Assembly (NCBI RefSeq): GCF_003990725.2
Contig: NZ_CP030064.1
Location: 682,001 to 746,000 of the forward strand
Source of the DNA: Halorubrum sp. PV6
GTDB lineage: Archaea > Halobacteriota > Halobacteria > Halobacteriales > Haloferacaceae
DNA: 64,000 nt
Direction of reading: 5' to 3'
The notes under the pieces were generated by a model. That model was not told the origin of the DNA. It did not search any database and worked only from the letters and a program-made list of their open reading frames with translations. The translations under genes and the position numbers were made by a program. This document shows positions 6,697-8,736 of the stretch, piece by piece. How positions within the stretch are numbered: the stretch's first letter is position 1; the number at the start of each line of letters is the position of its first letter.

Positions 6697-6751
6697 CCGA
6701 CCCCCCGCCCGACGCGACGACCGACTCGGCCCGCGGTGGCGGCTTTGCGAA

Positions 6752-6759
6752 TATATAAA
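6752..6759 (+). promoter_or_regulatory. TATA box of the tubulin-like gene
   Basis: TATATAAA lies 27-34 bases before the ATG at 6786, the expected position for a leaderless haloarchaeal transcript. It is the clearest TATA box in this part of the window. Confidence 0.7.
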
Positions 6760-6785: not shown

Positions 6786-7931
6786 ATGCGTGTACACGTC
6801 ATCGGTCTCGGCGGCGCCGGCGGCCGGGTCGTCGACCGACTCGCCGCCGACCGCGACGGGGACCGGTTCCTGCACGGCGTCAACGCGTTCGACACCGACG
6901 CCGCCGCGCTCGACGCGCTCCAGTCGGTCGGCGAGTCGCGGCGGTACCGCTTCGGCGACGCGGCCGCCGGGAGCGGACTCGACGGGGACCTCCACGCGGC
7001 CCGCCGGCTGGGCGACGCGCACGCCGGCGAACTCAGCCGGGCGATGGACGACCAGCAGCCGTCGCTCGCGGAGGCGTTCGTGCTCGTCGTCGGCGTCGGC
7101 GGGGGTGCGGGCGCGGGAGTCGCGCCTGCGCTGGCGGACGAACTGACCCGGCTGTACGACACGCCGGTCTACGCCGTCGGCCTCCTGCCGACCCCGGACG
7201 AGTCTGCGCCCGACGACCCCGACGCGCCGCGGTCCGCGGGCGACGACCCCGAGCGTCGCACCCCGGACCGCCCGCTGGCCGAGCAGAACGCGGCCCGGAC
7301 GCTGAACGCGCTCTCTGACCGTTGTGCGGCGATTTTTCCCTTCGACAACGCCGCGTGGATCCGGCCGGGCGAGGACATCGCCGACGCCCGAGACCGACTG
7401 AACGGCGTCCTCGCGACGCGGCTCGCGGCGCTCTTCGGCGCCGGCGAGGCGGACGACGCGGACTCGACGCCCCAGCAGGTGCTCGACGCGAGCGACGTGG
7501 CCCGCGCGGTGGGGTCGGACGGGGAGATCGCGGTCATCGGTCATGCGACGCAGGCGGTCGAACCCCCCGATTCCGGGTCTCGGTTCGGCCTCGGACTGTT
7601 CGGCTCCTCGGAGCCGGCCGAGGTCGACACGAGCGCCGCGGTCTCGGCGATAGAGACGACGATCCGGAAGGCCGCTCGCGGGAAGAACACGAGCGAAGTC
7701 CCCGAGGGCCGAGCCGATCGGACCCTGCTCGTTGTCGGCGGCCCGCCGGCGTGGCTCAACCGCGAGGCGATCGCCGACGGCCGGCGGTGGCTCGCCGACG
7801 AGACCGGATCGGGCGCGATCCTAAGCGGCGACGCTCCTGTCCCGGACGGCGACGAGGTGTTTGCAGTGGTCGTGCGATCGGGGGTCGACGAGCCGCCGCG
7901 AATCCGGGAGATTCGGTCGTCGATCGCGTGA
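6786..7931 (+). CDS. Divergent tubulin/FtsZ-superfamily protein
   Basis: A 381-residue protein with the FtsZ/CetZ layout: the nucleotide-binding start VHVIGLGGAGGRVVDRLA (about 4-20) and a T4-like signature loop at 105-114 (GGGAGAGVAP). FtsZ and CetZ have Thr in this loop (GGGTGTG or GGGTGSG), here replaced by Ala. The T7-like segment at 232-237 reads VLDASD: both catalytic acids (D234, D237) are kept, but the usual leading Asn is Val. GTP-driven polymerisation is therefore uncertain; it may be a regulatory or non-polymerising paralogue like other non-canonical haloarchaeal tubulins. It carries a long acidic, proline-rich insertion (about 137-165). It has its own TATA box and a downstream partner gene 67 bp away. 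Confidence 0.72.
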   Translation: MRVHVIGLGGAGGRVVDRLAADRDGDRFLHGVNAFDTDAAALDALQSVGESRRYRFGDAAAGSGLDGDLHAARRLGDAHAGELSRAMDDQQPSLAEAFVLVVGVGGGAGAGVAPALADELTRLYDTPVYAVGLLPTPDESAPDDPDAPRSAGDDPERRTPDRPLAEQNAARTLNALSDRCAAIFPFDNAAWIRPGEDIADARDRLNGVLATRLAALFGAGEADDADSTPQQVLDASDVARAVGSDGEIAVIGHATQAVEPPDSGSRFGLGLFGSSEPAEVDTSAAVSAIETTIRKAARGKNTSEVPEGRADRTLLVVGGPPAWLNREAIADGRRWLADETGSGAILSGDAPVPDGDEVFAVVVRSGVDEPPRIREIRSSIA

Positions 7932-7998: not shown

Positions 7999-8736
7999 GT
8001 GACATCCGCCGACCTCGGACTCGATCTCGACGTGCGCGACACGGACGCGGTCGCCGACCGACGCGACGACCTCGTCGCGGCCGTCCGGGACCACGCCGGG
8101 ACGATCGCCTACCAACTCGCGCGGCTGCAGGGCGGCGACTACGGCCGCCAGGAGCTGTCGACGCCGGGCGGGACCTGGACGGTCAAACACGAGGCGGGCG
8201 AACTGGAGTTCCTGCTGTTCTCACCGAAATCCGGCTCCGACGTGTACGTCATCTCGACGAAACAGCCGCCCGAGCCAGCGGACCTGTCGGCCGCGCTCGG
8301 CGACTACGCGAACTTCGTCGCGGCGTGGAACGAGTGGGTCGACTCGCTGTCCGGCGTCTTAGACGACGTCCACGTCGACTTCCCCGAGCCCGCCTCGACG
8401 GACGGCCTCGTCGCCGAGCGCGACCGCGTGCTGGACGCGATCCGCGAGGCCGCCTCGGTCATGGCCGGCGAGATCTACCGATACGAGGGAGACGACTACG
8501 GCACCTTCACCGCCCGCGTCGACGGCGACCGGTGGGAGTTAAAGTGGGAGGAAGGCGCCGTCTCGTACCTCCGGGTGGGCGGCTCCGGCGGGCTCTACCT
8601 GCTCTCGCAGTACGAGGCCCCGTCGGCCGTCGACGTGCGCGAACACGCCGACGCGGTCCGGGGATTCATCGAGGCGTACAACGAGTTCGTCGCGGAGGTA
8701 GAAAGCGATCTCGCGGCGGTCGAACTCGCTCCCTGA
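7999..8736 (+). CDS. Two-copy internal-repeat protein, unknown function
   Basis: A 245-residue acidic soluble protein with a GTG start at 7999. I do not recognise a family. It consists of two homologous halves: GDYG at 46-49 matches DDYG at 165-168, YVIS at 83-86 matches YLLS at 200-203, and FVAAWNEWV (106-114) matches FIEAYNEFV (223-231), offset 117-119 residues. Each unit appears as helix, then a beta meander with conserved Trp/Gly, then helix, somewhat like a profilin or secretion-chaperone fold, but that is a guess. It follows the tubulin-like gene on the same strand with 67 bp between them, so a functional link is plausible. Confidence 0.72.
   Translation: MTSADLGLDLDVRDTDAVADRRDDLVAAVRDHAGTIAYQLARLQGGDYGRQELSTPGGTWTVKHEAGELEFLLFSPKSGSDVYVISTKQPPEPADLSAALGDYANFVAAWNEWVDSLSGVLDDVHVDFPEPASTDGLVAERDRVLDAIREAASVMAGEIYRYEGDDYGTFTARVDGDRWELKWEEGAVSYLRVGGSGGLYLLSQYEAPSAVDVREHADAVRGFIEAYNEFVAEVESDLAAVELAP

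Follow-up and report, generated by a model that had tools for sequence, protein, structure and literature searches.

A CetZ-type gene with an altered GTP-binding loop

The gene at positions 6786 to 7931 of the window (the whole 64,000-nucleotide stretch of Halorubrum sp. PV6 DNA analysed here) raises the question of what a tubulin-superfamily protein does when its GTP-binding T4 loop reads GGGAGAG, a sequence that does not fit the canonical signature GGGTG(S/T)G. The earlier note had placed the protein in the tubulin superfamily, and the search against superfamily profiles that it proposed confirms this placement and narrows it to the CetZ type, with both the CetZ_C domain (PF21011; E = 3.1e-36, 124.9 bits against a cut-off of 21.6) and the Tubulin/FtsZ GTPase domain (PF00091; E = 5.2e-15, 56.7 bits against a cut-off of 33) exceeding their curated Pfam cut-offs. 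By sequence, the best solved relative is PDB 4B46 (E = 3.8e-54), whose match covers residues 1–143 and 168–377, which is all of the protein except an insertion, and which is identified in PMC9856176 as CetZ1 of Haloferax volcanii. An AlphaFold2 model made from 17 close Halorubrum sequences has low confidence (pLDDT 41), and its top PDB matches, CetZ2 and CetZ1, are given little weight. A scan of viral contigs for further sequences to deepen the alignment found none. The gene is a real, conserved archaeal CetZ-type tubulin homologue, and its reading frame, coordinates and motif positions are as first described (GLGGAGG from residue 7, GGGAGAG from 105, VLDASD from 232). Its features are as follows.

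6750–6759, + strand: TATA-box-like element, 27–36 bases upstream of the ATG (assigned by eye)
6786–7931, + strand: coding sequence of the divergent CetZ, 381 amino acids plus stop (open reading frame, Pfam, structure-sequence match, orthologues)
6804–6824, + strand: T1 loop GLGGAGG, residues 7–13 (tested sites invariant in Halorubrum orthologues)
6975–6995, + strand: T3 loop GLDGDLH, residues 64–70, where CetZ1 has GVGADNE
7098–7118, + strand: T4 loop GGGAGAG, residues 105–111, with Ala108 and Ala110 in place of the canonical Thr and Ser/Thr
7194–7280, + strand: acidic, proline-rich insertion in the T5 loop, residues 137–165
7467–7496, + strand: T7 segment TPQQVLDASD, residues 228–237, with catalytic acids Asp234 and Asp237 (near-invariant in Halorubrum)
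7578–7601, + strand: conserved SRFGLGLF, residues 265–272, in the M-loop region

Most Halorubrum orthologues carry an A/T-rich box ~30 bases upstream of the ATG which, together with the TATA-box-like element, suggests that the gene may have its own promoter and a leaderless transcript. At most Halorubrum loci the gene has a transporter gene of the AI-2E type on one side and, on the other, an unknown gene that precedes purK/purE. In another family (f4) it mostly adjoins a tRNA endonuclease gene, often with a tRNA synthetase gene, and in the remaining genomes it lies elsewhere. Because the neighbours differ among families, the context gives no function, and a function read from the neighbours was rejected, a partner common to all families being absent. 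Directly downstream, at 7999–8736 of the window, is a gene for a 245-residue protein with no Pfam match, which adjoins the CetZ gene in most of the Halorubrum loci examined.

The T4 substitution is fixed throughout Halorubrum

Counted along the FtsZ sequence, T4 residues 105–111 have the numbers of their E. coli FtsZ counterparts; residues 108 and 110 correspond to its T108 and T110, and B. subtilis T111 is equivalent to E. coli T110, the second Thr of the loop. Which residues contact the nucleotide is assumed from knowledge of FtsZ. The altered loop is no peculiarity of one genome: of 53 Halorubrum sequences, some of them near-duplicates, 52 have Ala at residue 108, one has Val, and none has Thr or Ser. 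In this same set of 53, near-duplicates included, residue 107 is Ala in 31 and Gly in 22, and residue 110 is Ala in 42, Gly in 8, Ser in 2 and Thr in 1, while Gly 105, 106, 109 and 111 are invariant in the Halorubrum orthologues. By comparison, all 30 Halorubrum CetZ1 orthologues read GGGTGSG, with Thr at the position equivalent to 108, and chance does not account for the T4 substitution.

Both this gene and a CetZ1 relative are found in 52/52 Halorubrum genomes. The median dN/dS is 0.30 for the divergent CetZ and 0.046 for CetZ1; the divergent protein is under purifying selection and evolving faster than CetZ1. Sequencing error and pseudogene status were rejected on the presence of the gene in all 52 genomes and on a dN/dS of about 0.30. 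In a tree built by a quick method, with the T4 and T5 columns omitted and without FtsZ rows, the protein falls outside the CetZ1 subfamily, in a separate clade of 45 rows (SH-aLRT 100) that stands apart from the CetZ1-like rows and contains Halorubrum, three other genera of its family and members of family f4, where the protein occurs in 66 of 125 genomes, about half. Outside Halorubrum the T4 sequences include GGGTGAG, GGATGGG and variants like them. Since these relatives retain Thr or Ser, Thr was lost a single time, at the base of Halorubrum, and the replacement of Thr/Ser by Ala/Val at 108 is one change on the tree. Orthologues with intact Thr in other haloarchaea had been expected to imply an error in this sequence. 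Such relatives, with Thr or Ser, do exist, but only outside the genus, and they do not imply error because the gene is present in every Halorubrum genome, with Thr/Ser in 0/53 sequences.

Among the plasmids searched there was no orthologue (best matches under 40% identity) and among the phages searched no match, and an origin from either was rejected on these grounds. The genome that carries the present gene has two further tandem CetZ-like genes at G000:C1:1012000-1014471 (loci L003, L005 and L094); the gene nearer position 1012000 combines a long T3-loop insertion with the loop GGGTGCG. A CetZ-like copy at G000:C1:1030933-1031853 (locus L118) is seemingly broken, its pieces lying in different frames and one of them containing an in-frame TGA.

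The T7 face is conserved and the T5 loop carries an insertion

Compared with randomly drawn sites, the T7 segment shows higher conservation (P about 1e-4), with residues 228–232 and 234–237 invariant in the 53 Halorubrum sequences. It had been observed that both T7 acids are kept, which holds and extends to their invariance, and that the leading Asn is replaced by Val, which is no departure, as CetZ1 itself reads VVDSSE. A T7 anomaly or weakening was therefore rejected, Val being the CetZ norm and the catalytic acids invariant. The true difference from CetZ1 is Asp rather than Glu at the second acidic position, which is E218 of CetZ1 when counted along the sequence alignment. Around the pocket, the T1 Gly residues and Asn168, the equivalent of FtsZ N165, are invariant in Halorubrum orthologues, and T3 and T4 show a tendency toward above-average conservation (P 0.09 for T3 and 0.07 for T4). 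The position of Asn188, presumably a guanine-contact residue, is Thr in 6/37 sequences, and residue 189 varies. The divergent CetZ lacks the acidic tail found at the C terminus of the genome's CetZ1-type proteins.

The unusual insertion noticed earlier is real. It can now be placed in the T5 loop, adjacent to the nucleotide, and assigned to the whole clade of relatives, where a T5 insertion is found in all 45 rows. It comes after Glu139, the residue aligned with E138 of FtsZ. Residues 137–165 read PDESAPDDPDAPRSAGDDPERRTPDRPLA; of these 29 residues, 9 are acidic, 7 are Pro and 4 are Arg. Its length in the aligned segment varies from 11 to 46 residues in Halorubrum and reaches 88 elsewhere. A CetZ lineage of another genus (code g5; loci L112, L113 and L123) has a T5 insertion of ~25 residues and the loop GGGTGAG; because this lineage is a separate tree branch, T5 insertions probably have more than one origin.

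Comparison with FtsZ mutants and known CetZ proteins

Published work locates E. coli FtsZ G105 and T108, and B. subtilis T111 (PMC3618327), in the tubulin signature motif. With almost no GTPase activity, E. coli FtsZ T108A still forms rings, without treadmilling and with hardly any subunit exchange (PMC5979038, PMC8175707), and B. subtilis FtsZ T111A has 13% GTPase activity and a critical concentration of 3.3 versus 1.6 µM (PMC3618327). In these mutants the same T4 residues are changed to Ala, and the proteins assemble with low GTPase activity. In contrast to the divergent CetZ, they are single laboratory mutations without a T5 insertion, whereas both changes here are natural and occur in a CetZ, the first of them fixed in the genus. 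By analogy, the substitutions predict a loss of hydrolysis more than a loss of binding or polymerization, with the mutant data describing single FtsZ changes and the T4 double substitution on a CetZ background known here from sequence.

H. volcanii CetZ1 (4B46) shares the two-domain architecture, the match along both domains and the Val before the T7 Asp, but differs in its GGGTGSG loop, in having Glu as the second T7 acid and in lacking a T5 insertion. H. volcanii CetZ2 (4B45) shares the superfamily (E = 4e-28) and is the top PDB match of the low-confidence model, but has the loop GGGSGSG and no T5 insertion. Brown and Duggin 2023 (PMC9856176) describe non-canonical superfamily members in archaea as well as CetZ paralogues beyond CetZ1 and CetZ2, including an uncharacterized Halobacteria CetZ subfamily that, like the present protein, lies outside the CetZ1 and CetZ2 groups; the text consulted does not mention altered T4 residues. 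In 2010, attention was drawn to archaeal FtsZ paralogues without important motifs (PMC2875224). In the open papers we found no report of the clade or of a genus-wide loss of Thr108, although the groups of PMC9856176 might already include the clade.

A slow- or non-hydrolysing CetZ as the preferred reading

Somewhat short of an even chance, our preferred reading is that the protein is a slow- or non-hydrolysing CetZ that binds nucleotide and makes or joins long-lived filaments beside CetZ1; we infer that it binds nucleotide, hydrolyses it slowly and polymerizes, as we do any role in the cell. Its own pocket would still hold guanine nucleotide, with hydrolysis slow or absent, and its T7 face would retain the catalytic acids. 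The invariant T1 and T4 Gly residues, Asn168 and T7 acids argue that nucleotide is still held at an interface, and slow or absent hydrolysis of its own, combined with the retained T7 acids, would lead the protein to form, or be built into, long-lived CetZ filaments with less turnover than those of CetZ1. Guanine binding may be weak too, given the altered T3, the Thr at Asn188 in a subset and the variable residue 189. The T5 insertion, if disordered, could block the longitudinal contact, which is a point against long-lived filaments, and the missing acidic C-terminal tail also counts against them.

The near-invariance of T7 beside more variable T3, T4 and T6 positions, and the T5 insertion in every clade row, would also suit a filament cap or terminator. 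It is unlikely that the T7 bottom face docks on the nucleotide exposed at the growing end of a canonical CetZ filament and that the degenerate pocket and T5 insertion then stop the next subunit, thereby limiting filament length. There is a precedent for one paralogue restraining another in Arabidopsis FtsZ1/FtsZ2, but the restraining paralogue requires its own GTPase (PMC8142252), and the tendency of T3 and T4 toward above-average conservation would be needless for a dead top face. More broadly, a protein that has lost its own hydrolysis and kept the hydrolysis-triggering T7 face could be a cap or a stabilizing co-subunit of canonical CetZ filaments, which we consider rather doubtful.

The altered T3 and T4 loops, the partly altered T6, the dN/dS of 0.30 against 0.046, the lost C-terminal tail and the known archaeal FtsZ paralogues without key motifs (PMC2875224) would fit a nucleotide-free pseudo-tubulin, its fold serving as a scaffold or partner-binding module that neither binds GTP nor polymerizes. 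This is improbable, the invariant T1 and T4 Gly residues, Asn168 and T7 acids making little sense unless nucleotide sits at some interface. Least probable is an ordinary dynamic CetZ in which Thr-to-Ala is tolerated or compensated, with normal GTP hydrolysis and cycling. Suppressors outside the pocket do partly restore the GTPase of the T4 mutant ftsZ84 (PMC4603965), and in a GC-rich genome a single A-to-G base step (ACC/ACG to GCC/GCG) suffices for the change, but CetZ1 of the same genus retains Thr in 30/30 despite equal base composition, and the same substitutions in FtsZ lower GTPase activity about 10-fold or more.

Implications

Haloarchaeal CetZ paralogues are numerous and mostly without known function, and this one is a natural counterpart of the FtsZ T108A and T110A mutants that is present across a whole genus. 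The use of two unequal FtsZ proteins in chloroplasts offers a parallel (PMC8142252). A direct test would be feasible of whether an archaeal slow- or non-hydrolysing tubulin stabilizes or limits filaments, and a genetic system reportedly exists for Halorubrum lacusprofundi (PMC10102395). If the protein does act as a cap or stabilizing co-subunit of canonical CetZ filaments, it would be a regulatory tubulin paralogue in archaea, both natural and genus-wide.
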